A program made the translations under genes and the position numbers. Below are positions 7,511-56,701 of a DNA stretch of 64,000 nucleotides, piece by piece. Every line of letters starts with the position of its first letter. Position 1 is the stretch's first letter. Under the pieces are notes generated by a model. It did no database searches, was not told the origin of the DNA, and worked only from the letters and a program-made list of their open reading frames with translations. Origin of the DNA: Hirudinaria manillensis. Lineage: Eukaryota; Annelida; Clitellata; Hirudinida; Hirudinidae. The stretch is from assembly GCA_034509925.1 (NCBI GenBank), contig CM067538.1, positions 5,480,278 through 5,544,277 of the forward strand, in the 5' to 3' direction.

Positions 7511-8459
7511 TTTGCTAGAATCATGTCAGGGTCGTGTACATCACCGTCATAACATTACAAACGTAGTTATCGTAACAATAGCGATTTGATGTCTAGATTT
7601 TCCTCAAAACTTTCTCAAAATACTAAGATCAAATTTGTATCAGTTTTGTTTCTGGCGTAATCCGGCAGCTTTATGAGGGCTAAAAGACATTTTGACCAAT
7701 TTTGAAAAATCAAACAATACCGAAAAAATAAAGAAATAAGATGTATTGTTATACTTGAAAGTTCTAACAATAAACATATTTTAGACACTGTAATCACGAC
7801 ATTGTTTCCACATCAAATTAACTTAATATTTAGCAAATTGAATTAAAAAAAAGTTTATTATTAACAAATAAATGAAAGGAGATACGATGAAATGAGGTTT
7901 ACTTTAGATGAAAATAATATAATTATAACGTTATAACGTGTCTCTATTTATGGAAACATCAAATCTGATCAAGGAATTTAAAAAATTGAGCGCCAAACGT
8001 TGGTCTTGGAAGTGGCATTTTCATCTTCAGCGCTTTCCTTTGACCTTTGGCCAGCGCATTCCACGTTGGTTGATATTGGGATAGCAACGATTTCACGAAA
8101 ATTATAAATAACTAATTAAATTGATGACTTTATATAGCGCTCCTTCTAGTCACTTAATATCACTCATGTTGTTTAATAAGTGCAGTTTTAATTATATAAT
8201 TAATTAATTAATTTAATATTATTGAAATTGGGCAGCGAATATTAAATAATTTACTGATATCGTGTAGAAATAATAAAATTTTAATAAATTAATTAAAATT
8301 AAATTTAAATTATTCTCGCTCGCATTATATACAGACTCTTTTTTATTCCAAGAGAAAGCTTCAACAAAGTCGACAGGTTACAACAACGAAGCCAGAAATA
8401 TCGCCTTCTCTTCACTGAACTTAGCAATCTCATTAAAAGTTGTATAAAATTTTTATAAA
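7511..8459. other. Intergenic, NOL4-like 3' UTR to PRPF6 5' region
   Basis: AT-rich sequence with no open frame of interest. An AATAAA near 7726 is a candidate polyadenylation signal for the NOL4-like gene. Tracts of ATTA/TTAA near 8200-8310 precede the PRPF6 start. I see no clear TATA box or other promoter element. Confidence 0.5.
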
Positions 8460-11234
8460 ATGCAGACCGATAAATTCGAACTTTCCCGGAGGAAGGAAAG
8501 GTTCATTGGCGTTTCTGCGCCACTCGGGTACGTACCTGGTCTAGGAAGAGGGGCCACTGGCTTCACGACTCGTTCGGATATTGGGCCTGCCCGAGAAATG
8601 GGAGACGCTCCAGAAGAGAGGAATAATAATCAGGTCAAGAAAAGAAAGGCAGACGATGAAGAAGATAATGACGATAATCTTAACGAAGTAAACTATGATG
8701 ATTTTGAAGGATACGGGGGAAATATTTGTGCCAAGGATCCCTATGATAAAGATGACGAGGAAGCCGATGAGATCTACTTCAGCATTGACGAAAGATTGGA
8801 CGAGAGAAGAAGGGATAGGAGAGAAAAAAGATTGAAAGTAGAACTGGAGAAGTACAGAGAGGAACGACCAAAAATACAGCAGATATTCATGGGCGCCAAA
8901 AAGGAGCTTTCGACTGTCAGTGTAGAGGAATGGAATAACTTGCCGGAAGTCGGCGACGCTAGAAATAAAAAAGCGAGAAATCCAAGAGCCGAAAAATACA
9001 CTCCCGTTCCTGATTCTATTCTGAGCATGAACTTAGACATGACATCTACATCCACGACACTCGGCTTAAGAGAACAGTTGTTTGGGGGAATGAAATCGTC
9101 AGTTCCCGGGACCTTTACACAAGGAATTGAATTAGGCGATTTAAGAGAAGCCCGAAATAAACTCCTGAACAGCAAACTTTCGCAAATAGGCGATTCTCTT
9201 TCAGGACAAACTGTTGTCGATCCAAACGGCTACCTCACCTCACTTGCATCCACGAATGCATCGAACATTGACGACATTAATAAAGGCAGGCTGTTATTTA
9301 AAAGCATTCTACAAACTAACCCCATGAGAGCCGATGCCTGGTTATCTTCAGCTAATCTGGAGGAAGTAGCAGGTAAATTACAGGCCGCAAGAAATATCAT
9401 AATGGCCGGATGCGAAAAATGTCCCAAGAGTGAAGATTTATGGATTGCAGCTGCAAGACTTTTGCAGGGTGATCAGAGGAAAGCGGCGGTCCTTGAAGGT
9501 CTTAGAAATTTACCAGAATCAGTTCGACTTTGGAAGAAATATGCTGACATGGAGGCCAAAGTTACTGATAAAAGAGCCGTTTACAGGAAAGCTTTAGAAA
9601 ATGTTTCTGTCTCTGTTGAACTATGGAAAGCGGCAATAGATTTAGAAGAGGAGGACAATGCCAAAATTATGTTGAACAGAGCAGTCGAATGCTGTCCATA
9701 CAATACTGAGTTTTGGATAGCCCTCTGCAGACTTGAAACGTATGACAGGGCGAAAGATGTCTTAAACAGAGCGAGAAACAAGATTCCAACGGAGAAGCAG
9801 ATTTGGATCGCTGCTGCAGAGTTAGAAGAAAGGCAAGGAAACATCGAGAAAGTTGAATTGATAATCCAAAAAGCTCTCAAGTCACTGGGAGCAAACGGTA
9901 TCGAAATAAAAAGAGAGCAATGGTTCGAGGAAGCTGAACGTGCAGAGAGGGACAAATGCATCGAGACATGCAAAGCCATCATCAGAAACGTTGCTGTTAT
10001 TGGCGTGGACGAAGTAGACAAGAGGGAGACTTGGATTAGCGATGCCAAAGATTTTGCAGGAAGAGAATCGATCGAGTGTGCTAGGGAAATGTACAATCAT
10101 GTCATCAAACTTTTCCAGCGAGACGAAGAGATATGGATTGAGGCAATTGAATTCGAGAAAATGTATGGAACGAGTGAATATGAGGATAAACTCTATCAAA
10201 CGGCAGTTTTACATTGTCCGAAATCCGAAACATTATGGTTGATGGCTGCCAAATTTAAGTGGAAATCTGGCGATATGAAGAGTGCCAGGAACATTCTCTC
10301 GCTTTCTTTCGATGCTAATCCGAAAAGTGAATCGATTTGGTTAGCCGCGGTAAAACTAGCATGGGAAAATGACGAATATGAGACTTCTAGAGTACTTCTT
10401 CAAAGAGCTCGACAGGCGACACCGAGTGAGAGAGTATTTATGAAATCCGTCAAATTGGAATGGTACCTGGGAGAAATCGAGAAAGCAAAGTCCTTACTAG
10501 AGGATTCCTTAGAACGGTATCCAACTTTTGCGAAATTATGGATGATGAAAGGTCAATTGGAGGATCAAGCTGGAAACCTGGAGATGACAAAGAAAGCGTA
10601 TCAGCAAGGACTCAAGAAGTGTCCAGATTCTGTTCCACTTTGGTTGCTTCTTGCACGAAAAGAAGAAAAAACTGGATTGTTGATAAGGGCAAGAGCAGTT
10701 CTAGAAAATGCAAGAAAGAAAATCTCTAAAGAACCTCAACTGTGGCTGGAGGCAGTGAGACTCGAAAGCAGGGGAAAATTTAAAGACGCCGCTTTGAGAT
10801 TGATGGCCATGGCTCTCCAGGAATGCCCCAAATCAGGAATTTTGTGGGCGGAATCTATCTTCTTGGGAACCCGACTAGAAAGAAAAACTAAAAGCGCAAG
10901 TGCTTTAGAAGCTTGCGGTAACAACGATGTACATGTAATTCTCGCTGCAGCCAAATACGTCTGGTCAGAGAGGAAGCTCGATAAGGCGAGAAAATGGCTC
11001 AAAAGAGCTGTCGAGATTGATGCAAATTTTGGCGATGCTTGGGCATTTTACTATAAATTTGAAACTATTCATGGAAAAGCCAGCCATACAGATGAAATAA
11101 TGAAAAACTGCGTGAAGGCTGAGCCCAGAGAAGGAGAATATTGGTGTGCAGTCTCTAAAGACATCAAGAATTGGAAGTTAAAAACAGAAGCCATTCTACC
11201 CCTTGTGGCACAAATGGTGCCAGTACCCCAATAA
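8460..11234 (+). CDS. PRPF6: Pre-mRNA-processing factor 6 (U5 snRNP HAT-repeat protein), intronless
   Basis: A single open frame of 924 codons matches PRPF6/Prp6 over its whole length (human protein about 940). In this family the protein bridges U5 and U4/U6 snRNPs in the tri-snRNP in the nucleus. The N-terminal PRP1 domain is clear: APLGYVPGLGRGATGFTTRSD near residues 20-45, the acidic YDKDDEEADEIY stretch near 100, and GQTVVDP near 250. From about residue 270 a long series of HAT repeats follows, with recurrent LW..A/E.....A motifs such as FMKSVKLEW and GLKKCPDSVPLW. The C-terminus has the conserved GDAWAFYYKFE and WCAVSKDI blocks. The start at 8460 is the first ATG in frame. An AATAAA lies about 20 bases after the stop. 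The absence of introns is unusual beside heavily interrupted neighbours; a retrogene origin is possible, but the frame is intact. Confidence 0.97.
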   Translation: MQTDKFELSRRKERFIGVSAPLGYVPGLGRGATGFTTRSDIGPAREMGDAPEERNNNQVKKRKADDEEDNDDNLNEVNYDDFEGYGGNICAKDPYDKDDEEADEIYFSIDERLDERRRDRREKRLKVELEKYREERPKIQQIFMGAKKELSTVSVEEWNNLPEVGDARNKKARNPRAEKYTPVPDSILSMNLDMTSTSTTLGLREQLFGGMKSSVPGTFTQGIELGDLREARNKLLNSKLSQIGDSLSGQTVVDPNGYLTSLASTNASNIDDINKGRLLFKSILQTNPMRADAWLSSANLEEVAGKLQAARNIIMAGCEKCPKSEDLWIAAARLLQGDQRKAAVLEGLRNLPESVRLWKKYADMEAKVTDKRAVYRKALENVSVSVELWKAAIDLEEEDNAKIMLNRAVECCPYNTEFWIALCRLETYDRAKDVLNRARNKIPTEKQIWIAAAELEERQGNIEKVELIIQKALKSLGANGIEIKREQWFEEAERAERDKCIETCKAIIRNVAVIGVDEVDKRETWISDAKDFAGRESIECAREMYNHVIKLFQRDEEIWIEAIEFEKMYGTSEYEDKLYQTAVLHCPKSETLWLMAAKFKWKSGDMKSARNILSLSFDANPKSESIWLAAVKLAWENDEYETSRVLLQRARQATPSERVFMKSVKLEWYLGEIEKAKSLLEDSLERYPTFAKLWMMKGQLEDQAGNLEMTKKAYQQGLKKCPDSVPLWLLLARKEEKTGLLIRARAVLENARKKISKEPQLWLEAVRLESRGKFKDAALRLMAMALQECPKSGILWAESIFLGTRLERKTKSASALEACGNNDVHVILAAAKYVWSERKLDKARKWLKRAVEIDANFGDAWAFYYKFETIHGKASHTDEIMKNCVKAEPREGEYWCAVSKDIKNWKLKTEAILPLVAQMVPVPQ

Positions 11235-13765: not shown

Positions 13766-13829
13766 ATGGGTTATTCAAAGCTCTGGTTACTTTTCTTGCT
13801 GGCGAATAGTTTCTCCTTTGCCACAAAAG
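13766..13829 (+). CDS. Signal-peptide leader exon of the D8C-VWD array
   Basis: ATG at 13766 opens 21 codons: a hydrophobic core (LWLLFLLANSF) ending FATK, then a phase-1 GTAAAC donor after 13829. This is a typical cleavable signal peptide for entry to the secretory pathway. The next phase-1 acceptor is the first module exon at 14294. No equivalent leader exon precedes copies 2 (18978) or 3 (23708), so either those copies share this leader by splicing or they are not independently secreted. Confidence 0.7.
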
Positions 13830-16800
13830 GTAAACATTGTTCAGACTTTTATTTTTTGTACTAGAAACTCTTTCTGATGGGGCTGGTCATTATAATATTA
13901 TAATGGGGCTGATATTTCTTTATCTTTGTAATAATATATAAAAAATAGATTGATTCGAGACCGTTTTGAAGAATGTGATTAGATTTTTGCGGTTCATTAG
14001 ACCGAGATCAAAAGGAATTACGCTGCAATTGTTTTATTTAATAAATAAGTCTTAATTAATTAACCTGAATCTAATGTATAATTTTTTTTACATGGAGAGT
14101 GAGGATTAATGCTTATGTGATAAACCTTCCATTGATTGGCATAATGTGAAATTCTTCTATAATCCGGGTCATTTTGAGATGTATTTCTAAAATTTCTAGG
14201 TTTATTTTCAAAATTGAATCCAATAAAAATCTGAATACAAAGCAATTTTTAAACAGTATATTTACTAATTAATAATATACAAAACCGTTCCAGATGAATG
14301 TGATTCTGCTGAAAATATTTCAAATCCTAAACGATCACCCGAGTTTATAAACACGCCCAACTCTCTGGAACTTTGTGATTCACAACTTCAACAAGGTTGC
14401 AAATTAATAGTTCACATTTTAATTATTTTATAATGCTCGAATTTTCTACGCAACGATAATGAAAAATGAATTTATGTAGCGCCGCAAACGTGAAATTTGT
14501 GACACCTGCCAAAAAATCGTTAACTTATAAATAACGCAGAAACAAGAATAAATTCGAGGCTTAATTTCTTTAATATTTAATTATTTTTGCAAATTCAAAT
14601 GTAAACTTTAAAAATGTAAAAAAAAAACTGAATGTAAATCAGGCAAATGGTACAACCTCGGTGGAAAGATCACAGGGAGTTGCGTGGAATTCAACAGGTG
14701 CAGCACCTTTGCGGGAATTTGGTACCAAGGAAATTTTCCCACAGGTAACGGAAGCGTGAAATAACATCTGCAAAAAAAAACTTATAAATACCGACGCCTT
14801 TCGTCAGGAACCGAAATTGTCTCGGGAAGAGTTTGCGCAAGGATCAGCAATTCAAGTTGCTGTGGTTGGAGTGGAACTATTAAAGTTAAAAAGTGTCGAG
14901 CAGGATTTGTATATCAGCTTGCAGTACCCCAAAAGTGTCCCATGTCATATTGTGTTGGGGAAACTTCCCCCTGCCCTCGGGACCAGGTGTATCACAGAAA
15001 TACTGGAACGTGCTTAAGTAAGAATGTGAATTCCAATCAAAACTGTTTAATTTCTTTTAAATATTTATTAACAATTCATTAACCCAATCAGTTCTATTAC
15101 ATGCCTAATGATGATGTTAATAATGAATAAGTTAGACAGTTTAATTATCTTATTTTTAAATTTTCTTAAATTACTCAAACATAGATATTCTCCAGTTGGA
15201 AAAGCCAATCCTGAGCCGGCCCTACATCTCTGCTTACAAATTTTATGGAACGTTCAATGCTACCATGTTCTCGATTGACTGCCAATTGAATTCAAATACA
15301 GCTGGTTTTGTCCCCGGTGCTAAACTCAAAGTTGAGGTGTCGTTCAAGATGAATGACCTGGAAGTAGCCAAGATTGTGAGTGATTACCCAGTCAGTAAGG
15401 TAACTCTGGAAGAAACGTATCTTTATGGACAGATTGGAAAAACGGTTAATAAAAATATTTTCTTAACATTCTGAGCAGATGATCAAAAATATAGCTGGTA
15501 TTGGTAATATATGTTTATAATATAATAATCGATTAATATAAATTTCAATTGAAAACATAGTATCATTATATAAAAAAATACATCAAGTAATCATTCATAT
15601 GTATATCAATTTGCTAATGAAATCCCAGATGTAAGGCTTAACTTCTTAAGTCGTGATCAGTGAAATATCGGATTTGATGCTATTGAACAAGGAATGCTAT
15701 TGGAGGTGGTTAACGTAATAGAATCTCATTAGAAGGATAAAATATGTTTGATTGTCGACTCTTGAAATATCAATAACCCAATTACTGCAGCTCACTAGTG
15801 AAGCTCAGTTATTTTACGAATTTCTCGACGGATCAGTTACGACAAAAACCGTAGCCGTAAAGAGTTCCGGATTTTTCTTTGGAATTGAGGCCATCGTACG
15901 TTCCATAAGTTATTGCTATAATTATTTATTATTATACATATTTTTTAATTTTATAATTTACAATAATTATATTTTTTATGCCACAAATTGTTTATCTCAT
16001 CCCTTTTCCCATAATTCAATTTTCAATTCGCGATTTCTTCCAACAAGTGACCAAATTGCTAATCGCATACACATGTGGCAGGTTGAACGTCGCTGAGGAA
16101 TTATTAATTTTCCTATCATTTTCAATTTAGGATTCGAGTGGGGTCGTCATGAAAGAAATTGTTTTGAATCAGGGAGTCACCAAAGAGATTTATTTTAGAT
16201 CCACGTTTCCAATAACTTTTGGTCACTGCGTCAAGTCAGACAGTTGCCTCGTCCAGAAATACTTGTTTGTTACTGAAGCTATTAAAATTGGTGTGAATCA
16301 AAACGAATGCCAAGTCCATTTTGATAATCCGTTCGGTATCTTGGTATCTAAGTCCTCCAATTCGATCAGAATTAAAGCCAAAATTACTCTGGGAATTGAA
16401 CATTCAAGAGATATGCTAGCCTTTAAGCCTTATTTTCACATCTTCAGTGGCACAATTTTCCAGGGATGTATTATTCCCCCAATTGTGGTTTGCAATTTAT
16501 TCATATTTATAACTCACGTTTATAATTCATGCAATTATCAGACTATTCTAAGAGTAACATGTAACATTTTGTAACGTGGTAATAGTCGTTAAATTTTTCC
16601 CAATCTAAGCCATGAATTAAAGACACGAAAAAATATTTATATAAAAAATACATTAGATATGCATGCACATAAATAAATGTAATGAATGAATATTTAAACC
16701 TGCACGAACGTTAATGATTGATTCTTTTTCAATTCGAATTTTCAACCGGAAAAAGATGATCGTCAGGGAGACTTCAAAGCAACCCACATGCCATTCAACA

Positions 16801-18792
16801 GGAGATCCGCATTTCTTGTCGTTCCAGTAAATAATTGAATTATTAATTATAAACAGTACATAATCGCTTACAAAATTAAAATGTTTCAGCGGCGTGGCTT
16901 TTAGTAATTACCTGGCTGGAGACTTCAACCTGTTGTCTTGCAGAGACAGAACTTTCCAGGTGACTTTTCTCTTTTTTGACTTGAATCTAAGACGTGAACC
17001 GTCTATCGTGAATCATTGTCTTAAAAGCAAATGACGTTTTTAGCCGAAATCACAGTCAAATTATTCCTCGATTATTTAGATTCAGGTTCGCCAAGTGTTT
17101 TGCTATCGTCGAATTTCTTGCAACTGTGGGATGATTGCCCGGGAAGGTTTGAATATTAATTTACTCGATCGAGATTTTAGTTAATGTTTGATTTTTAACT
17201 GACTTTGAAAGAAACAAAATTGGGAAAATAATTTTTTGTTATAAAAATGTTATCTTAAATTATATTAAAATAAAATAAACTCATTCATTAAAAAGGGAAT
17301 AATCTGATTGGAATCAATAGTTGCGATTACCGAAAGATTCCGTACATAATCCAGATAATGAGAGACAAAGTCAACCCAACTGCTTCTATTAAAAAAATAA
17401 ATGGGCAGTACCACGTAAGTTCTAGGATCAAGTAACTAACATTTCAAATGTCTTTAAAATTCCGAAGAAGGTATTTATCAATCATGACAAAGAACTTACA
17501 GACCATGTTTCAACCCTTGAATTTTATATTAGCTTATAGAAATTATTAATAATTATTAGTAAATAGAGATTGTTTTCTGCAGATTAAATTTCCATCCGGT
17601 ATCGCCATTAAAGTCGCTTTTTTTCACGAAGCTGCAAGGAAGGCAACATATTTGAACATTTACGTCTCGGGTTTAAAACATGAAATATATGGAGGCATAT
17701 GTTCAGCTACCACAAAGCCTGCGAACTTCAATACTTATAGGTGGCGGCTTTAAGCTTTTAAAAAGCATTCTACTCAACCTTTGGTTTCCAGGTCTCAAGT
17801 TGTAATTAATTTCAGGATAACTGAAGCGAACAGCTTCTTTAAAGGCTATTTGCCCCCTTGCGTGAACGAAGTTAATAATTTCCCTCGGTGTAAATGCACT
17901 GGTAATGGCGGTAACAACGTATCGGTTGTATGCGAATTCAATCAAGGACAGCAAGATTTTGAAATGGTGAAATTTGAAAACATCTGCAACGTAAACATTG
18001 AAGCTCGTCATGTCGCAACATCTTCCCAAGGACTTACCTTGCAAGACATCTTCAAAGACGTGGATCACAGCAGAGATGATGAAGCCGTACGTGAATTAAC
18101 AACCATAATTATAATTTAATTATCCGTTGTACAATTAGTACGGCCCCGTTTTTCAGTAAATCCGATTGTAGAAATTAATTTTATTATCTCGGCAACACAT
18201 TCACAAACTTGAGTCATCCGATTTCAGTTTACGTGATTACGTTTGATTGTAGCCTGGAGAATTTGAAGCCATGCCAGTAAATGAGGCACAAGGCCACTGC
18301 TCCAGAGTTTTGCATAAGTCGCATTTTTTGAGCAAATGTGCTCAGTTCCTTGGCAATAAACACCAAGTTATTGAAAATAACTGCTTATATGACGTCAAGG
18401 TATTTTAACTGTTTTCTAAAATTATATTTTGAATAATTTTGTAAGTTTGATTAAGTAAAATTAGGATAAAGATTTGACAAGTCACATTGCTAAATCAAGC
18501 TAAACATTACCAGTATTCATTAAGTTCAAGAAAATGTTGTAATGTTCCTTAAGTTCCTTAAATCATCTTTTCTAAATAATTCATGAAGCTGTCTGGGAGC
18601 GCCGAAATCGCTGAAACTTACCTCGACGTTTACGAAGATGTTTGCAGGACAACAATGGCCAAAGAAGTGTCAATCGTGGACGGTGAAAAGTCTCCAGAAA
18701 GTAAAGATATCGCTGCTATTTTAGTTGAAATTGACTCCCACTATGATCAAAGACAGCTTCATTGTGACAAACCTTGGGAAGGTCCTGATTGA
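13766..18792 (+). CDS. D8C-VWD-C8 secreted protein, tandem copy 1 (with signal peptide)
   Basis: Exons read: 13766-13829, 14294-14395, 14643-14744, 14808-15017, 15185-15399, 15791-15895, 16131 to about 16553, about 16756-16826, 16890-16959, 17086-17146, 17296-17414, 17583-17740, 17816-18086, 18253-18399 and 18589-18792. With these borders the frame is continuous, about 773 residues. After the signal peptide comes a D8C domain like that of uromodulin and GP2: WYNLGG, then SCCGWSGTIKVKKC, then a Cys-rich end. A middle segment (exons from 15185 to 16553) is unrecognised. Then GDPHFLSF plus GVAFSNYLAGDFNLLSC open a VWD domain, continuing CNCGMIAREG and ending IYGGICS. A Cys-rich region with PRCKC and NNCLYDVK resembles C8. 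The join 16553/16756 is the least certain. A stop at 18790 is followed by AATAAA (18816). It is probably extracellular; its function is unknown. Confidence 0.75.
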
Positions 18793-18977
18793 AAATTATT
18801 TTAACTTCTTTTTTAAATAAACATTATTATCAGTCATTATTACTATATATTAATATATAATTATTATCATAAGTTATTAATAAGTTTATTTTCTGAATTG
18901 AATCCAATAAAAATCTGAATACTAAGCTATGTTTAATCAGTATATTTACTAATTAATAATATACAAAACCGTTCCAG

Positions 18978-21900
18978 ATGAATGTGATTCTGCTGAAAAA
19001 ATTTCAAATCCTAAACGATCACCCGAGTTTATAAACACGCCCAACTCTCTGGAACTTTGTGATTCACAACTTCAAGAAGGTTGCAAATTAATAGTTCACA
19101 TTTTAATTATTTTATAATGCTCGAATTTTCTACGCAACGATAATGAAAAATGAATTTATGTAGCGCCGCAAACGTGAAATTTGTGACACCTGCCAAAAAA
19201 TCGTTAACTTATAAATAACGTAGAAACAAGAATAAATTCGAGGCTTAATTTCTTTAATGTTTAATTATTTTTGCAAATTCAAATGTAAACTTTAAAAATG
19301 TAAAAAAAAACTGAATGTAAATCAGGCAAATGGTACAACCTCGGTGGAAAGATCACAGGGAGTTGCGTGGAATTCAACAGGTGCAGCACCTTTGCGGGAA
19401 TTTGGTACCAAGGAAATTTTCCCACAGGTAACGGAAGCGTGAAATAACATCTGCAAAAAAAAACTTATAAATACCGACGCCTTTCGTCAGGAACCGAAAT
19501 TGTCTCGGGAAGAGTTTGCGCAAAGATCGACAATTCAAGTTGCTGTGGTTGGAGTGGAACTATTAAAGTTAAAAAGTGTCGAGCAGGATTTGTATATCAG
19601 CTTGCAGTACCCCAAAAGTGTCCCATGTCATATTGTGTTGGGGAAACTTTCCCCTGCCCTCGGGACCAGGTGTATCACAGAAATACTGGAACGTGCTTAA
19701 GTAAGAATGTGAATTCCAATCAAAACTGCTTAATTTGTTTTATATATTTATTAACAATTCATTAACCCAATCAGTTCTATTACATGCCTTATGATGATGT
19801 TAATAATGAATAAGTTGGACAGTTTAATTATCTTATTTTTAAATTTTCTTAAATTACTCAAACATAGATATTCCCCAGTTGGAAAAGCCAATCCTGAGCC
19901 ATCCCTACATCTCTGCTTACAAATTTTATGGAACGTTCAATGCTACCATGTTCTCGGTTGACTGCCAATTGAATTCAAATACAGTTGGTTCTGTCCCCGG
20001 TGCTAAACTCAAAGTTGAGGTGTCGTTCAAGATGAATGACCTGGAAGTAGCCAAGATTGTGAGTGATTACCCAGTCAGTAAGGTAACTCTGGAAGAAACG
20101 TATCTTTATGGACAGATTGGAAAAACGGTTAATAAAAATATTTTCTTAACATTCTGAGCAGATGATCAAAAATATAGCTGGTATTGGTAATATATGTTTA
20201 TAATATAATAAACGATTAATATAATAATCGATTAATATAAATTTCAATTGAAAACATAGATAATATAATTATATAAAGTATAGATAGTATAATTATATAA
20301 AAAAATACATCAAGTAATCATTCATATGTATATCAATTTGCTAATGAAATCCCAGATGAAAGGCTTAACTTCTTAAGTCGTGATCAGTGAAATATAGGAT
20401 TTGATGCTATTGAACAAGGAATGCTATTGGACGTGGTTAACGTAATAGAATCTCATTAGAAGGATAAAATATGTTTGATTGTCGACTCTTGAAATATCAA
20501 TAACCCAATTACTGCAGCTCACTAGTGAAGCTCAGTTGTTTTACGAATTTCACGACGGATCAGTTACGACAAAAACCGTAGCCGTAAAGAGTTCCGGATT
20601 TTTCTTTGGAATTGAGGCCATCGTACGTTCCATAAGTTATTGCTATAATTATTTATTATTATACATATTTTTTAATTTTATAATTTACAATAATTATATT
20701 TTTAAGCCACAAATTGTTTATCTCATCCCTTTTCACATAATTCAATTTTCAATTCGCGATTTCTTCCAACAAGTGACCAAATTGCTAATCGCATACACAT
20801 GTGGCAGGTTGAACGTCGCTGAGGAATTATTAATTTTCGTCTCATTTTCAATTTAGGATTCGAGTGGAGTCGTCATGAAAGAAATTGTTTTGAATCAGGG
20901 AGTCACCAAAGAGATTTATTTTAGATCCACGTTTCCAATAACTTTTGGTCACTGCGTCAAGTCAGACAGGTGCCTCGTCCAGAAATACTTGTTTGTTACT
21001 GAAGCTATTAAAATTGGTGTGAACCAAAACGAATGCCAAGTCCATTTTGATAATCCGTTCGGTATCTTGGTATCTAAGTCCTCCAATTCGATCAGAATTA
21101 AAGCCAAAATTACTCTGGGAATTGAACATTCAAGAGATATGCTAGCCTTTAAGCCTTATTTTCACATCTTCAGTGGCACAATTTTCCAGGGATGTATTAT
21201 TCCCCCAATTGTGGTTTGCAATTTATTCATATTTATAACTCACGTTTATAATTCATGCAATTATCAGACTATTCTAAGAGTAACATGTAACATTTTGTAA
21301 CGTGGTAATAGTCGTTAAATTTTTCCCAATCTAAGCCATGAATTAAAGACACGAAAAAATATTTATATAAAAAATACATTAGATATGCATGCACATAAAT
21401 AAATGTAATGAATGAATATTTAAACCTGCACGAACGTTAATGATTGATTCTTTTTCAATTCGAATTTTCAACCGGAAAAAGATGATCGTCAGGGAGACTT
21501 CAAAGCAACCCACATGCCATTCAACAGGAGATCCGCATTTCTTGTCGTTCCAGTAAATAATTGAATTATTAATTATAAACAGTACATAATCGCTTACAAA
21601 ATTAAAATGTTTCAGCGGCGTGGCTTTTAGTAATTACCTGGCTGGAGACTTCAACCTGTTGTCTTGCAGAGACAGAACTTTCCAGGTGACATTTCTCATT
21701 TTTGACTTGAATCTAAGACGTGAACCGTCTATCGTGAATCGTTGTCTTAAAAGCAAATGACGTTTTTAGCCGAAATCACAGTCAAATTATTCCTTGATTA
21801 TTTAGATTCAGGTTCGCCAAGTGTTTTGCTATCGTCGAATTTCTTGCAACTGTGGGATGATTGCCCGGGAAGGTTTGAATATTAATTTACTCGATCGAGA

Positions 21901-23521
21901 TTTTAGTTAATGTTTGATTTTTAACTGACCTTGAAAGAAACAAAAGTGGGAAAATAATTTTTTGCTATAAAAATGTTATCTTAAATTTTATTAAAATAAA
22001 ATAAACTCATTCATTAAAAAGGGAATAATCTGATTGGAATCAATAGTTGCGATTACCGAAAGATTCCGTACATAATCCAGATGATGAGAGACAACGTCAA
22101 CCCAACTGCTTCTATTAAAAAAATAAATGGGCAGTATCACGTAAGTTCTAGGATCAAGTAACTAACATTTCAAATGTCTTTATAATTCCAAAGAAGGTAT
22201 TTATCATTCATGACAAAGAACTTACAGACCATGTTTCAACCCTTGAATTTTATATTAGCTTATAGAAATTATTAATAATTATTAGTAAATAGAGATTGTT
22301 TTCTGCAGATTAAATTTCCATCCGGAATCGCCATTAAAGTCGCCTTTTTTCACGAAGCTGCAAGGAAGGCAACATATCTGAACATTTACGTCTCGGGTTT
22401 AAAACATGAAATATATGGAGGCATATGTTCAGCTACCACAAAGCCTGCGAACTTCAATGCTTACAGGTGGAGGCTTTAAGCTTTTAAAAAGCATTCTACT
22501 CAACCTTTGGTTTCCAGGTCTCAAGTTGTAATTAATTCAATAATTTCAGGATAACTAAAGCGAACAGCTTCTTTAAAGGCTATTTGCCCTCTTGCGTGAA
22601 CGAAGTTTATAATTTTCCTCGGTGCAAATGCGCTGGTAAAGGCGGTAACAACGTATCGGTTGTGTGCGAATTCAATCAAGGACAGCAAGATTTTGAAATG
22701 GTGAAATTTGAAAACATCTGCAACGTAAACAAGGGAAGTACAATTGATGAAGCTCATCATGTCGCAACCTCTTCCCAAGGACTTACCTTGGAAGACATCT
22801 TCGAAGACGTGGATCACAGCAGAGATGATGAAGCCGTACGTGAATTAACAACCATAATTATAATTTAATTATCCGTTGTACAATTAGTACAGCCCCGTTT
22901 TTCAGTAAATCCGATTGTAGAAATTAATTTTATTAGCTCGGCAACACATTCACAAACTTGAGTCATCCGATTTCAGTTTACGTGATTACGTTTGATTGTA
23001 GCCTGGAGAATTTGAAGCCATGCCATTAAATGAGGCACAAGGCCACTGCTCCAGAGTTTTGCATAAGTCGCATTTTTTGAGCAAATGTGCTCAGTTCCTT
23101 GGCGATAAACACCAAGTTATTGAAAATAACTGCTTATATGACGTCAAGGTATTTTAACTGTTTTCTAAAATTATATTTTGAATAATTTTTGTACGATTAA
23201 GTAAAATTAGGATTAAGATTTGACATGTCACATTGCTAAATCAAGCTAAACATTACCAGTATTCATTAAGTTCCTTAAATCATCTTTTCTAAATAATTCA
23301 CGAAGCTGTCTGGGAGCGCCGAAATCGCTGAAACTTACCTCGACGTTTACGAAGATGTTTGCAGGACAACAATGGCCAAAGAAGTGTCAATCATGAACGG
23401 TGAAAAGTCTCCAGAAAGTAAAGATATCGCTGCTATTTTAGTTCAAATTGACTCCCACTATGATCAAAGACAGCTTCATTGTGACAAACCTTGGGAAGGC
23501 CCTATCAAAGGTCCTGATTGA
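18978..23521 (+). CDS. D8C-VWD-C8 module, tandem copy 2 (no own signal peptide)
   Basis: All fourteen module exons of copy 1 are present with intact frame and splice sites, offset by about 4684-4720 bases: D8C exons around 19327-19701, middle exons to about 21279, VWD exons around 21480-22460, and Cys-rich exons from 22556 to the stop at 23519. The first module exon begins in phase 1 after a TTCCAG acceptor (18977), but no signal-peptide exon lies between copy 1's stop and this point. In the penultimate region the linker reads NVNKGSTIDEAHH. The last exon ends with three extra codons compared with copy 1. The polyadenylation hexamer equivalent to that of copies 1 and 3 is changed to AATAAG (23546). 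Coding integrity argues against a pseudogene; transcription status is unknown. Confidence 0.7.
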
Positions 23522-23707
23522 AAATTATTTTAACTGCTTTTTTTAAATAAGCATTATTATCAGTCATTATTACTATATATTAATATATAATTATTATCAT
23601 AAGTTATTAATAGTTTTATTTTCTGAATTGAATCCAATAAAAATCTGAATAGTAAGCTATGTTTAATCAGTATATTTACTAATTAATAATATACAAAACC
23701 GTTCCAG

Positions 23708-26700
23708 ATGAATGTGATTCTGCTGAAAAAATTTCAAATCCTAAACGATCACCCGAGTTTATAAACACGCCCAACTCTCTGGAACTTTGTGATTCACAAC
23801 TTCAAGAAGGTTGCAAATTAATAGTTCACATTTTAATTATTTTATAATGCTCGAATTTTCTACGCAACGATAATGAAAAATGAATTTATGTAGCGCCGCA
23901 AACGTGAAATTTGTGACACCTGCCAAAAAATCGTTAACTTATAAATAACGTAGAAACAAGAATAAATTCGAGGCTTAATTTCTTTAATGTTTAATTATTT
24001 TTGCAAATTCAAATGTAAACTTTAAAAATGTAAAAAAAAAACTGAATGTAAATCAGGCAAATGGTACAACCTCGGTGGAAAGATCACAGGGAGTTGCGTG
24101 GAATTCAACAGGTGCAGCACCTTTGCGGGAATTTGGTACCAAGGAAATTTTCCCACAGGTAACGGAAGCGTGAAATAACATCTGCAAAAAAAAACTTATA
24201 AATACCGACGCCTTTCGTCAGGAACCGAAATTGTCTCGGGAAGAGTTTGCGCAAAGATCGACAATTCAAGTTGCTGTGGTTGGAGTGGAACTATTAAAGT
24301 TAAAAAGTGTCGAGCAGGATTTGTATATCAGCTTGCAGTACCCCAAAAGTGTCCCATGTCATATTGTGTTGGGGAAACTTTCCCCTGCCCTCGGGACCAG
24401 GTGTATCACAGAAATACTGGAACGTGCTTAAGTAAGAATGTGAATTCCAATCAAAACTGCTTAATTTGTTTTATATATTTATTAACAATTCATTAACCCA
24501 ATCAGTTCTATTACATGCCTTATGATGATTTTAATAATGAATAAGTTGGACAGTTTAATTATCTTATTTTTAAATTTTCTTAAATTACTCAAACATAGAT
24601 ATTCCCCAGTTGGAAAAGCCAATCCTGAGCCATCCCTACATCTCTGCTTACAAATTTTATGGAACGTTCAATGCTACCATGTTCTCGGTTGACTGCCAAT
24701 TGAATTCAAATACAGTTGGTTCTGTCCCCGGTGCTAAACTCAAAGTTGAGGTGTCGTTCAAGATGAATGACCTGGAAGTAGCCAAGATTGTGAGTGATTA
24801 CCCAGTCAGTAAGGTAACTCTGGAAGAAACGTATCTTTATGGACAGATTGGAAAAACGGTTAATAAAAATATTTTCTTAACATTCTGAGCAGATGATCAA
24901 AAATATAGCTGGTATTGGTAATATATGTTTATAATATAATAATCGATTAATATATATTTCAATTGAAAACATAGTATCATTATATAAAAAATACATCAAG
25001 TAATCATTCATATGTATATCAATTTGCTAATGAAATCCCAGATGTAAGGCTTAACTTCTTAAGTCGTGATCAGTGAAATATCGGATTTGATGCTATTGAA
25101 CAAGGAATGCTATTGGACGTGGTTAACGTAATAGAATCTCATTAGAATGATAAAATATGTTTGATTGTCGACTCTTGAAATATCAATAACCCAATTACTG
25201 CAGCTCACTAGTGAAGCTCGGTTGTTTTACAAATACCACGATGGATCAGTTACGACAAAAACCGTAGCCGTAAAGAGTTCCGGATTTTTCTTTGGAATTG
25301 AGGCCATCGTACGTTCCATAAGTTATTGCTATAATTATTTATTATTATACATATTTTTTTAATTTTATAATTTACAATAATTATATTTTTTATGCCACAA
25401 ATTGTTTATCTCATCCCTTTTCCCATAATTCAATTTTCAATTCGCGATTTCTTCCAACAAGTGACCAAATTGCTAATCGCATACACATGTGGCAAGTTGA
25501 ACGTCGCTGAGGAATTATTAATTTTCCTCTCATTTTCAATTTAGGATTCGAGTGGGGTCGTCATGAAAGAAATTGTTTTGAATCAGGGAGTCACCAAAGA
25601 GATTTATTTTAGATCCACGTTTCCAATAACTTTTGGTCACTGCGTCAAGTCAGACAGGTGCCTCGTCCAGAAATACTTGTTTGTTACTGAAGCTATTAAA
25701 ATTGGTGTGAATCAAAACGAATGCCAAGTCCATTTTGATAATCCGTTCGGTATCTTGGTATCTAAGTCCTCCAATTCGATCAGAATTAAAGCCAAAATTA
25801 CTCTGGGAATTGAACATTCAAGAGATATGCTAGCCTTTAAGCCTTATTTTCACATCTTCAGTGGCACAATTTTCCAGGGATGTATTATTCCCCCAATTGT
25901 GGTTTGCAATTTATTCATATTTATAACTCACGTTTATAATTCATGCAATTATCAGACTATTCTAAGAGTAACATGAAACATTTTGTAACGTGGTAATAGT
26001 CGTTAAATTTTTCCCAATCTAAGCCATGCCTTAAAGACACGAAAAAATATTTATATAAAAAATACATTAGATATGCATGCACATAAATAAATGTATTGAA
26101 TGAATATTTAAACCTGCACGAACGTTAATGATTGATTCTTTTTCAATTCGAATTTTCAACCGGAAAAAGATGATCGTCAGGGAGACTTCAAAGCAACCCA
26201 CATGCCATTCAACAGGAGATCCGCATTTCTTGTCGTTCCAGTAAATAATTGAATTATTAATTATAAACAGTACATAATCGCTTACAAAATTAAAATGTTT
26301 CAGCGGCGTGGCTTTTAGTAATTACCAGGTTGGAGACTTCAACCTGTTGTCTTGCAGAGACAGAACTTTCCAGGTGACTTTTCTCATTTTTGACTTGAAT
26401 CTAAGACGTGAACCGTCTATCGTGAATCATTGTCTTAAAAGCAAATGACGTTTTTAGCCGAAATCACAGTCAAATTATTCCTCGATTATTTAGATTCAGG
26501 TTCGCCAAGTGTTTTGCTATCGTCGAATTTCTTGCAACTGTGGGATGATTGCCCGGGAAGGTTTGAATATTAATTTACTCGATCGAGATTTTAGTTAATG
26601 TTTGATTTTTAACTGACTTTGAAAGAAACAAAATTGGGAAAATAATTTTTTGCTATAAAAATGTTATCTTAAATTATATTAAAATAAAATAAACTCATTC

Positions 26701-28247
26701 ATTAAAAAGGGAATAATCTGATTGGAATCAATAGTTGCGATTACCGAAAGATTCCGTACATAATCCAGATGATGAGAGACAATGTCAACCCAACTGCTTC
26801 TATTAAAAAAATAAATGGGCAGTACCACGTAAGTTCTAAGATCAAGTAACTAACATTTCAAATGTCTTTAAAATTCCGAAGAAGGTATTTATCAATCATG
26901 ACAAAGAACTTATAGACCATGTTTCAACCCTTGAATTTTATATTAGCTTATAGAAATTATTAATAATTATTAGTAAATAGAGATTGTTTTCTGCAGATTA
27001 AATTTCCATCCGGAATCGCCATTAAAGTCGCCTTTTTTCACGAAGCTGCAAGGAAGGCAACATATTTGAACATTTACGTATCGGGTTTAAAACATGAAAT
27101 ATATGGAGGCATATGTTCAGCTACCACAAAGCCTGCGAACTTCAATGCTTACAGGTGGCGGCTTTAAGCTTTTAAAATGCATTCTACTCAACCTTTGGTT
27201 TCCAGGTCTCAAGTTGTAATTAATTCAATAATTTCAGGATAACTAAAGAGAACAGCTTCTTTAAAGGCTATTTGCCCCCTTGCGTGAACGAAGTTTATAA
27301 TTTCCCTCGGTGCAAATGCGCTGGTAAAGGCGGTAACAACGTATCGGTTGTATGCGAATTCAATCAAGGACAGCAAGATTTTGAAATGGTGAAATTTGAA
27401 AACATCTGCAACGTAAACAAGAGACGGAAGAGGAGTACAATGGATGTAGCTCATCATTTCGCAACCTCTTCCCAAGGACTTACCTTGGAAGACATCTTCA
27501 AAGACGTGGATCACATCAGAGATGATGAAGCCGTACGTGAATTAACAACCATAATTATAATTTAATTATCCGTTGTACAATTAGTACGGCCCCGCTTTTC
27601 AGTAAATCCGATTGTAGAAATTAATTTTATTAGCTCGGCAACACATTCACAAACTTGAGTCATCCGATTTCAGTTTACGTGATTACGTTTGATTGTAGCC
27701 TGGAGCATTTGAAGCCATGCCAGTAAATGAGGCACAAGGCCACTGCTCCAGAGTTTTGCAGAAGTCGCATTTTTTGAGCATATGTGCTCAGTTCCTTGGC
27801 GATAAACACCAAGTTATTGAAAATAACTGCTTATATGACGTCAAGGTATTTTAACTGTTTTCTAAAATTATATTTTGAATAATTTGTGTACGATTAAGTA
27901 AAATTAGGATTAAGATTTGACAAGTCACATTGCTAAATCAAGCTAAACATTACCAGTATTCTTTAAGTTCAAGAAAATGTTGTAATGTTCCTTAAGTTCC
28001 TTAAATCATCTTTTCTAAATAATTCACGAAGCTGTCTGGGAACGCCGCAATCGCTGCAACTTACCTCGACATTTACGAAGATGTTTGCAGGACAACAATA
28101 GCCAAAGAAGTGTCAATCGTGGACGGTGAAAAGTCTCCAGAAAGTAAAGATATCGCTGCTATGTTAGATGAAATGGACTCCAACTATGCTGAAAGACAGC
28201 TTCATTGTGACAAACCTTGGGAAGGCCCTATCATAGGTCCTGGTTGA
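23708..28247 (+). CDS. D8C-VWD-C8 module, tandem copy 3 (furin-like site in linker)
   Basis: The third intact module begins at a phase-1 acceptor (23707) and ends at a stop at 28245. The domain order is as in the other copies: D8C (about 24056-24432), middle exons (24600-25973), VWD (about 26170-27160), Cys-rich/C8-like (27237-28247). It shares with copy 2 the changes in the D8C and following exons. Its private changes are concentrated in the 3' half: the linker after ICNVN reads KRRKRSTMD, a basic cluster matching the R-X-K/R-R furin consensus (codons 27419-27433), and the last exon has several substitutions (NAAIAATYLDI, DEMDSNY). AATAAA follows the stop at 28272. It has no leader exon of its own. 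Function unknown. Confidence 0.7.
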
Positions 28248-28359
28248 AAATTATTTTAACTGCTTTTTTTAAATAAACATTATTATCTGTCATTATTACT
28301 ATATATTAATATATAATTATTATCATAAGTTATTAATATTGCATAATATTTCCATTTAG

Positions 28360-28466
28360 ATTCGTTAATTCAAGCGTTGCTCAAGAAATTGAAGACGTCT
28401 CACGTTCTCATTTTCTCTGGAACAATTTTGGTAGCAGGGAGCGTACTCACGGGCCTTCTGCATTGA
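28360..28466 (+). CDS. Orphan terminal exon with a C-terminal membrane-like segment
   Basis: After copy 3, a TTTAG acceptor (28355-28359) opens a phase-1 frame of 34 codons ending in TGA at 28464. It encodes a short basic stretch (KKLKT) followed by about 20 hydrophobic residues (HVLIFSGTILVAGSVLTGLL) at the extreme C-terminus, as in a tail membrane anchor or GPI-type signal. Phase 1 is the same phase at which each module starts, so this exon could replace a further module. It has no counterpart after copies 1 or 2. A second reading frame (phase 2) is also open here, so the call is tentative. Confidence 0.4.
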
Positions 28467-54300: not shown

Positions 54301-56701
54301 ATGGCTCTGCGCAGGTTGCAAAAATTAAATTTATTCCAGCGAAAATTGGCATTGCCGATTCCTGGTAACGCCTGGCAAGATAATCTTAAATCCCCACAAA
54401 GACGTTATGGTGTATCGTTAAAAGAGAGAATCTTTCTGAGAAATTCAGAAAAAGGAGGCGATGATATTCCAAGGTGATGATATTTATTTTGGACAGGAGC
54501 TGAGCGCGAAATGGAAAGAGAGGCATTCTGCGCGCCATCAGATTAAAAGCCTCCTCTCGGCTCCAGCACCACTCACTCCGTCGCTCAATCCATCTAGCGC
54601 CGACCTCGTGATAATTGTGAACTTTCGAATGAACGAGCATCAATCGAAAAGACTGTCGGGAGAAAGAGAATATATAGGTGGAGGACTTTCTCTTTGTTTA
54701 ATTAAGAGAAATCCTTCTTCTTTGAAGTATTAATCAGTTCCTTGCTTTCTTGTGATCGCGAGAGATTCTCTCGACTCCTCTCGTTCTGTACTCCTTTATG
54801 TTCTCCTCGATGTCGTGCCTCTGTCTGTCTGTCTAAGCTGTCTGTGTGCCTGTAGTCTGTTTAATATTACGAGTCTCGACTTTTCCATGCCGGAGTTTCC
54901 GTTCTCAGAAAGTACTTCAACAGGCGAACGGAAGTAGAGAAAAACAAATTCCGAACTCCCGCGGCTCTCGAGAGTCTCCGCGTCCGATTGACGTCAACAG
55001 TTTGAAGGGATTGTACTTAAAGGGAATCGAAATGAGTTTTCCCGACAGGATTTTAAAGAAAATGTTTTAAATCTTTTTAAATCCTGGAATGTTTAATCTC
55101 CCAAATATTGCATGGAAGCGTTGGATAATCTCTTGTTTTTTTTGGGTGGAGGGGAAGGAAAACAAATCTACAGCCTTAAACTCGAAGTGTAGATGGATTG
55201 ATTGACGGATGGATCGATGTTGAATTAATTAATTAATTCGTAGATGACGAAACGGATGCTTCCTCTCTTCAATCAGTGACGCATGGAATGTCTCATTGTT
55301 GTCGGAATTTATCGAGACGATGGCTAATGAATATTAATGAGTCTGCCCAATCAGTACTCACTCACTCACTCACTCACTCACTCACTCACTCACTCACTCA
55401 CTCACTCACTCACTCACTCACTCACTCACTCACTCAGTCAGTCACTCACTCAAGTCACCCACTTCTCTTGAGATTGTAAAGAGCATGCTAAACGACTTTC
55501 GCTTCACGCGTCAAAGTGAGATGCACCAAGCTTTCCACGGGCAGGCAATGCATCACTTGAAATTCCTAAATCGAATTGAATTTCCAGCTGGAATGCGGCA
55601 GTCTGGCTGGAAAGGCAAGTATCCATTCCGATATTGCTACTGGAGGCGATTTGGATGTTGCGATGGACTCGTGTATAATCGTGTGTCACTCGCTACTGAA
55701 CTGGTAGCGCTCTATCGATTAAGCAGTAACTCATATCCATCTGGCGCTAGCTACGCGGTACTGGGGCTCAGATGGCTGGAAAATTTGTGGTATTTGAAGC
55801 GTATTGGATACCCAGCGATATCGATGGGGATAGCTGGAATTGAATGGCATTGATATAATCAGATAATTAACCAGTAATGATTATTAATACATATTAAACG
55901 TTATATTGTTTCATTTTGCTTATATTATTTTAGATTACTTTAGACTTGAAGAGGATAAATAAACATCGTTAGGCATTATTAAGCGGAAAAGTTAGTTAAT
56001 GGACTGGCAACCATGAACACGCGGCTTAACGAAAGATAACTTTAAACTCCATCATTTTGGAGATTAAGTAAGGAAATATTATTTAATCCGCCCCAAAAGC
56101 TACTCTTGAATTTAGCGATATTAAGAGCTCTCTCGTGCTTTTAGCGGGGTAACTAGAGACGCCTGGTGTGTGGTCCACTTGTGAAGCTATTTTCCATTCC
56201 CATCCATTTGATCCGTTCCAATCCATCTCCTTTCCGAATCTTTATGGTCATCGAATAATTTTCCATCTCCGTGGGCATTTAAGACGGAGTTGCTGGAGTT
56301 CTGCAGTTATCTCCATATCCGAAGCGCGTGTAGGTCAAACGGATAGCACTTTGTTTGCGAATGTAGCAGTGATAGCCAGACAGCCCCCTATCGATAACGG
56401 TTCTTGTTTTCTCGATGTTTTTTATAGCTTGCTCCTAAGTGCTTTATTATTATTGGCACGCGTAAGGATTACGTTGTGGATGGATGGATGGGTTGATGGA
56501 GGTGGATGAATGGATGGGTGGATGGCTGGAGGGGACAGAGAGGGATGGAGGACCCTTTAGACTCTTTAAAACCCCTTGATGTGATTGCTTGACGTTTAAG
56601 GAATCTCAGGATTGTCGTCTGCTTTGAAATGGAATTTAAACAAAATTCTTTCATGTTTTTTGCAAACGGTAAAGTGCTCTGTTAACTAAATGCTTGTGAT
56701 G

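Follow-up and report, generated by a model that had tools for sequence, protein, structure and literature searches.

One leader exon, three tandem copies of a fourteen-exon ectodomain block and one tail exon in a predicted VWDE-derived gene of Hirudinaria manillensis

When one signal-peptide exon is followed by three nearly identical multi-exon modules and then by one exon with a hydrophobic end, are the modules joined into one protein, chosen one at a time, read as separate genes, or left untranslated after the first? This question is raised by a locus of Hirudinaria manillensis located within positions 13766-28466, on the + strand, of a 64,000-nucleotide stretch of contig CM067538.1 (C13:5480278-5544277; the window, to which positions refer unless a contig is named). 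The reading favored here, with confidence slightly better than even, is that of a single VWDE-derived gene in which a whole block of 14 ectodomain exons is present three times internally and would be chained into a multi-module protein with a glycosylphosphatidylinositol (GPI)-like anchor. The gene models of the window and of its paralogs are predictions from the sequence.

Self-BLAST places three head-to-tail tandem units of ~4.7 kb each at 14197-18882, 18881-23612 and 23611-28338, with identity among them of ~97-98% in exons and introns alike. Each unit was modelled with 14 coding exons (E2-E15) and is in phase 1 at both ends. Exon borders of copy 1 were picked by us at GT-AG sites and moved to copies 2 and 3 by alignment, where GT and AG are preserved at 13 of the 13 internal introns. 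The two duplication breakpoints both fall within introns: the unit starts inside intron 1, and its end lies in the last intron, 21 bases before the tail exon begins. Because of these positions, copies 2 and 3 would never have received the leader exon E1 or its promoter. The features are as follows.

13766..13829, + strand: E1, signal-peptide (leader) exon with phase-1 end and donor AAG|GTAAAC; the same kind of leader, in the same phase, is found in paralogs G1, G2 and G3 (see below)
14197..18882, + strand: tandem unit 1 by self-BLAST, starting in intron 1 and ending in the last intron
14294..18781, + strand: module 1, E2-E15, phase 1 at both ends, borders supported by paralogs
14294-14395, 14643-14744, 14808-15017, 15185-15444, 15791-15895, 16131-16487 and 16756-16826, + strand: exons E2-E8 of module 1
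16890-16959, 17080-17146, 17296-17414, 17583-17740, 17816-18086, 18253-18399 and 18589-18781, + strand: exons E9-E15 of module 1
18782..18977, + strand: inter-module intron 1/2, 196 bp, with an in-frame stop at 18790-18792 if unspliced
18978..23510, + strand: module 2, E2-E15, first exon 18978-19079, last exon 23306-23510
23511..23707, + strand: inter-module intron 2/3, 197 bp, containing the duplication joint that is also present in intron 1/2
23708..28236, + strand: module 3, E2-E15, first exon 23708-23809, last exon 28032-28236, or to 28242 with donor CTG|GTTGAA
28360..28466, + strand: tail exon with phase-1 start, reading DSLIQALLKKLKTSHVLIFSGTILVAGSVLTGLLH and a stop; GPI-signal-like or membrane tail

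This layout agrees with a preliminary description of the locus in three respects: the leader peptide (MGYSKLWLLFLLANSFSFATK) is located before copy 1 only, the E2 acceptors (14294, 18978 and 23708) are all in phase 1, and a phase-1 exon with a hydrophobic C-terminus follows copy 3. The intact frames noted there are likewise borne out. The modules measure 2232, 2259 and 2268 nt, all multiples of 3, and the leader, three E2-E15 blocks and the tail form one open reading frame with a single stop, whichever of the two candidate sets of last donors is used. This frame is 2309 residues long (2310 codons including the stop) with the GTCC donors, 2311 residues if copy 3 uses its better last donor, and 2253 residues if copies 1 and 2 use their internal GTAAAG donors. 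A symmetrical unit, one leader, one tail and a continuous frame are thus all found in the window array.

Were copies 2 and 3 separate genes, each would need a first exon with its own signal peptide, hidden inside the preceding copy. A scan of the + strand gave 0 leader-like exons in 16500-18977 and 0 in 21000-23707, the last 150 bases of each stretch being outside the scan and covered only by a list of the ATG codons in the gaps. With the same settings the known E1 was recovered, and the mean over the window was 2.5 candidates in each 2.5 kb. The inter-module gaps (196-197 bp) also gave no leader; the sole ATG per gap reads MFNQYIY. Leaders are short and the scan is simple, yet nothing in support of separate genes was found, and intronic breakpoints mean that neither promoter nor leader was duplicated. 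On these two grounds separate genes were rejected, and we regard them as very improbable.

If modules 2 and 3 were leftovers, some decay would be expected. Among 70 exonic substitutions between the copies there are 0 stops, against 4.7 expected from the intron spectrum (P ~0.008). All three exon indels (24, 9 and 12 nt) are multiples of 3, whereas 9 of 11 distinct intron indels break frame, and ~8 (8.1) frame-breaking indels would be expected in exons without constraint (P ~3e-4). The intron indels were collapsed by hand to these 11 from 16 raw gaps, of which 12 are frame-breaking (10.8 expected, with shared gaps counted twice); of the two in-frame intron gaps one sits at the alignment end. 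The use of all three modules, as had been proposed, consequently has moderate support from the sequence.

The copies have diverged by ~2%, with private substitutions and indels in each. Near-identical tandem units are hard to assemble, and a triplication of this kind could in principle be an assembly artefact. However, in our judgement the divergence and the private changes exceed consensus error; an assembly duplicate was rejected on this basis and is hardly credible. Copy 2 is a mosaic: over its first ~1.2 kb it differs by 0.2-0.5% from copy 3 and by 2.3-2.5% from copy 1 (permutation 1/5000), and beyond that point it is no longer nearly identical to copy 3. Such a pattern is as it would appear after unequal exchange or conversion, and for this reason the copy number of the 4.7-kb unit may vary in the population.

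The tail exon aligns with the tails of the paralogs described below, scoring 98 against that of G4 and 64 against that of G1 (0/5000 shuffles each), while the match to the G2 tail is weaker (score 31, 45/5000 shuffles). When 794 further AG acceptors of the + strand in the window were compared with the paralog tails, the best of them scored 41. From these alignments the window tail is judged homologous to the paralog tails, with the weaker match to G2 borne in mind; a chance open reading frame was rejected on the basis of the shuffles and the acceptor comparison. Maximal 17-residue Kyte-Doolittle values are 1.96 for the window tail and 2.27, 2.11 and 2.00 for G1, G2 and G4. The tails end hydrophobic, without a cytoplasmic part, and as judged by eye have small residues and a spacer upstream. 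As such, the tail is predicted to be a GPI-signal-like segment or a membrane anchor.

Searches of the 148-Mb genome (23 contigs) revealed five further modules, G1-G5, on the minus strand of the same contig ~320 kb away (C13:5135600-5171525). Scoring was confined to the best candidates, and the numbers of modules are therefore minimum values. G1 (810 aa) and G2 (815 aa) are intact 16-exon gene models comprising a leader, one module and a tail; the G1 model needs a GC donor at E4. G3 and G4 together form one predicted gene of 27 exons, 1478 aa and one stop, comprising a leader, two modules and a tail. The first of its modules is complete and has its E15 fused in frame to an E4 remnant; the second is without E2, E3 and the greater part of E4. 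In G5, which looks like a pseudogene, E12 is disrupted, and inspection by eye of the following 1.5 kb showed no tail. The paralogs share the exon series, phases, leaders and tails of the window gene, an agreement partly built in because the exon search demanded the same phases as the window model. They differ from it in having one or two modules rather than three, and G1-G4 share 56-61% protein identity with window module 3.

The paralog genes (leader, module and tail; leader, two modules and tail) explain the anatomy of the window gene. In a tree of 10 rows from the 13 modules or genes seen (G5, C7_2 and the C6:6.2 Mb gene were left out), the three window copies group together (100/100), apart from G3 and G4. 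In the same tree C6_1, C6_2 and C7_1, relatives on two other contigs, are automatic exon models with some ends doubtful; they sit on long branches, and some forks are open. The groupings point to the window array and the G3+G4 pair as separate duplications, so that a second module would have been gained on two separate occasions in this genome, with leader and tail retained on either side.

The preliminary description had allowed that one leader be spliced to any module as well as to a chain. Splicing of E1 to the E2 of copy 1, 2 or 3 would give three single-module proteins, only that of copy 3 with the tail. Phases permit this, as E1 ends and the three E2 exons start in phase 1; every copy carries an in-frame stop of its own, shortly after the last donor of the unit; and copy 3, which adjoins the tail, has the best last donor. 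Such a choice would nevertheless require en-bloc skipping of 14 or 28 exons, and no such layout exists in the paralog models, which include a two-module gene instead. Of that proposal the shared leader and tail stand and the chain has a precedent in the predicted two-module frame of G3+G4, but no precedent for module choice was found. Chaining therefore appears likelier than the choice of single cassettes, which we hold to be improbable.

What kind of ectodomain is repeated was approached through an alignment of 8 rows (alignment A1; window copies 1 and 2, G5, C7_2 and the C6:6.2 Mb gene were left out). The D8C domain is supported (Pfam PF23283, E 6.6e-12 and 2e-10) and is found in 6 of the 8 members, the other two being without D8C exons. 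At the D8C and the stretch preceding it the family profile matches GP2/uromodulin (E ~2e-16). VWD (PF00094) was matched weakly in 2 of 8 members, with a best E of 0.018, and the window protein is not one of these. The GDPH segment gave E 4e-5 against FCGBP for the whole sequence, no single stretch passing alone. C8, the domain that follows VWD in a VWF/mucin-type assembly, gave no listed match at E up to 5 in the 8 members, nor any in the tested E14-E15 segments, and this label was dropped. Of the D8C-VWD-C8 series initially assigned to each module, then, the first domain is firm, the second weak and the third not found. There was no EGF match in the window protein, whose E15 ends in a stop or the tail, and no Pfam match for a ZP module among the 8 family members. 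An NCBIfam search yielded nothing useful, and Rfam had 0 matches in the window.

The exon series is shared by relatives on contigs C6 and C7, from E2 in C6_2 and C7_1 and from E5 in C6_1, for which D8C exons were not found. After E15 both C6 genes (C6_1 and C6_2; C6:11.1 Mb) run into EGF domains (E ~3e-5). A distant relative at C6:6.2 Mb combines a D8C-like segment (tblastn E 9e-13), VWD (E 1.2e-6), RRRKR and EGF (E 8e-6). A figure legend in PMC8930769 has the D10C/D8C of VWDE aligned with UMOD, GP2 and OIT3, and according to a passage in PMC9117669 VWDE contains VWD and EGF. Because the D8C-VWD-EGF layout of the relatives is that of VWDE, the window lineage is named VWDE-derived, and the architecture is not, as had been thought, one without a match to a named protein. 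Because this lineage is without EGFs and ends in an anchor-like tail, it is not called VWDE itself. We thus place the window gene, on predicted domains and exons, in a VWDE-derived lineage in which the EGF region would have been exchanged for a GPI-like tail.

An N-terminal D8C/D10C, a GDPH segment of putative VWD type and a Cys-bearing E14 before the C-terminal part are common to VWDE and the window protein. Unlike VWDE, the window protein has no EGF match, carries a hydrophobic GPI-like tail after E15 and has a putative VWD too diverged for Pfam. GPI anchoring is known for uromodulin and GP2. Uromodulin and GP2 resemble the window family in the D8C and the stretch before it, and differ from it in the ZP module, for which the family gave no match. 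The downstream open frames of the C6 and C7 relatives also end hydrophobic (C6A 11951, C7A 9999) and are possible anchors.

The junctions between modules are where chaining meets most difficulty. AG|GTCC sites at 18782, 23511 and 28237 precede the three stops, as was noted early on. Donors were scored against 79 reference donors drawn from our own family models, the pseudogene-like G5 included. Copy 3 alone has an in-phase CTG|GTTGAA, 6 bp past AG|GTCC, which outscores 7 of the 79. Several observations weigh against a chained, VWDE-derived product. Although kept in all three copies, AG|GTCC (AAG|GTCCTG) is a very weak donor: in copies 1 and 2 it outscores only 2 of the 79 and in copy 3 none of them, and C at donor position +3 occurs in 1 of the 79. 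An in-phase AAA|GTAAAG inside E15, common to the three copies, is also poor (above 4 of 79). Copies 1 and 2 read ATTGAA at the place of the better copy-3 donor. The alignment at the end of E15 is ambiguous, and MAFFT columns set AG|GTCCTG, not CTG|GTTGAA, opposite the G1 and G2 donors. The AATAAA motifs in the gaps mean that transcripts could end at module 1. The G3+G4 junction is now one fused exon and gives no proof that an E15-to-E2 splice works; G3 joins G4 in the tree with moderate support (91/89), below the star given by the tool. Between the copies the ratio of nonsynonymous to synonymous substitution rates (dN/dS) is 0.67, 1.38 and 0.78, i.e. near 1, so that amino-acid constraint is unsupported and the use of all modules is argued for by frames and not by residues. 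The stretch after E15 in C7_1 (C7:0.09 Mb) is only weakly EGF-like, with a best EGF E of 1.4 and no Pfam support. Lastly, the basic sites of G3+G4, listed by eye, follow a pattern different from that of the window: its first module has KVKR and KWKR, and the second only LKR.

Either AG|GTCCTG or CTG|GTTGAA may be the inherited E15 donor. Since the better donor of copy 3 is absent from copies 1 and 2, these scores favor splicing to the tail over splicing between modules. Copy 1 has another very poor donor at E12 (TAG|GTGGCG), which must be used if the module is made at all, so a weak donor is not a dead donor. Other non-standard donors in the family models are, besides the GC at G1 E4, GTC at G1 E12 and C7_1 E12. 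AATAAA is found at 18816 and 18906 in inter-module intron 1/2; with 25 AATAAA in the whole array, such motifs in the gaps are weak evidence.

The main alternative is that only the leader and module 1 are translated, as a secreted protein of 768 aa with its stop at 18790-18792, and that the tail and the other two modules are remnants too recent to have decayed. The weak inter-module donors, the lack of the better site in copies 1 and 2, the AATAAA at 18816 and the dN/dS near 1 all fit it. It is opposed by the frames, with neither a stop nor a frame-breaking indel in any copy against the ~4.7 and ~8 expected across the three, and by a tail exon that is intact and homologous to paralog tails. We consider this alternative a real but minority possibility. 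Frames kept without visible residue constraint are what would be expected of a chain, where any break would also cost everything downstream.

Under the preferred chained arrangement, a first tandem duplication would have been followed by unequal exchange to give three copies. Transcription would start once, before E1, and neighboring modules would be spliced to one another, each E15 being joined at a phase-1 site to the E2 that follows. The product would be a chain of several modules with a GPI-like anchor, up to ~2310 residues long. Given the weakness of the inter-module donors, a short product is likely too: some transcripts would probably be read through the end of E15 in module 1 to the stop close behind it and encode a single module of 768 residues, secreted and unanchored, whose frame ends at 18792. 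We would accordingly expect a mixture of this secreted protein and longer chains. How long the anchored ectodomain is would then depend on the array, and the balance between short secreted and long anchored forms on splicing at E15.

A further difference between the modules lies in E13.

17816-18086, 22550-22835 and 27238-27532, + strand: E13 of the three copies, with copy-specific in-frame length differences at the furin-type site
27422..27433, + strand: furin-type RRKR in E13 of module 3 only, coordinates counted by hand

E13 of modules 1 and 2 is shorter at this place by 24 and 9 nt, and the site is absent there. RRKRS is also present in paralog G1, and RRRKRG in the C6:6.2 Mb relative. A furin-type site in module 3 only would fit a chain left uncut between modules, yet because the pattern in G3+G4 differs we give this argument little weight. 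It enters a more tentative extension of the chained arrangement, which we put forward as a possibility rather than an expectation: a length-tunable surface protein in a VWDE-derived family, its block multiplied twice, separately, in the genome, its copy number varying between individuals, a weak donor beside a stop in every block choosing between a short secreted form and an anchored chain, and inner modules that have lost the furin-type site retained by the module nearest the anchor, which would keep the chain whole.

Intragenic amplification of modules is itself well known. The kringle IV-2 repeats of LPA and the SRCR repeats of DMBT1 are intragenic module arrays in which unequal exchange changes copy number. 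Like these, the window array repeats a symmetrical unit of several exons, head to tail, within a single gene. Unlike in these, the unit takes in almost all of the ectodomain (14 exons, ~750 aa) and is placed between leader and tail exons, and a stop follows a few bases past the last donor of each unit. Because such amplification is well known, the window array illustrates an established principle well and does not introduce a new one. Literature searches (intragenic or domain-repeat duplication; VWDE with GPI-anchored and expansion) returned no described equivalent, though this does not prove that none exists. If the chain is made, the locus would be a clear case of a whole multi-domain ectodomain serving as the repeat unit of a growing protein. 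The birth of an array would then be readable within one genome, from one-module genes through a two-module gene sealed by exon fusion to a three-module gene that retains the introns it started with and whose copies exchange sequence. In addition, the locus would document a VWDE lineage in which a membrane anchor has taken the place of the EGF region.

Elsewhere in the window, other frames match the PRP1/PRPF6, NOL4, NIF phosphatase, NRF1 and galactosyltransferase families, gene names being inferred from the Pfam families. A 928-codon intronless stop-to-stop frame at 8448-11231 (+ strand) contains PRP1_N and HAT/TPR repeats and is PRPF6-like; if it is a full gene, its intronless state is unusual for an animal gene of such size. 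At 55341-55850 a simple-repeat frame reads THSL repeats and is probably a microsatellite. Short DNA matches are located at C6:1836698 and C1:7965617.

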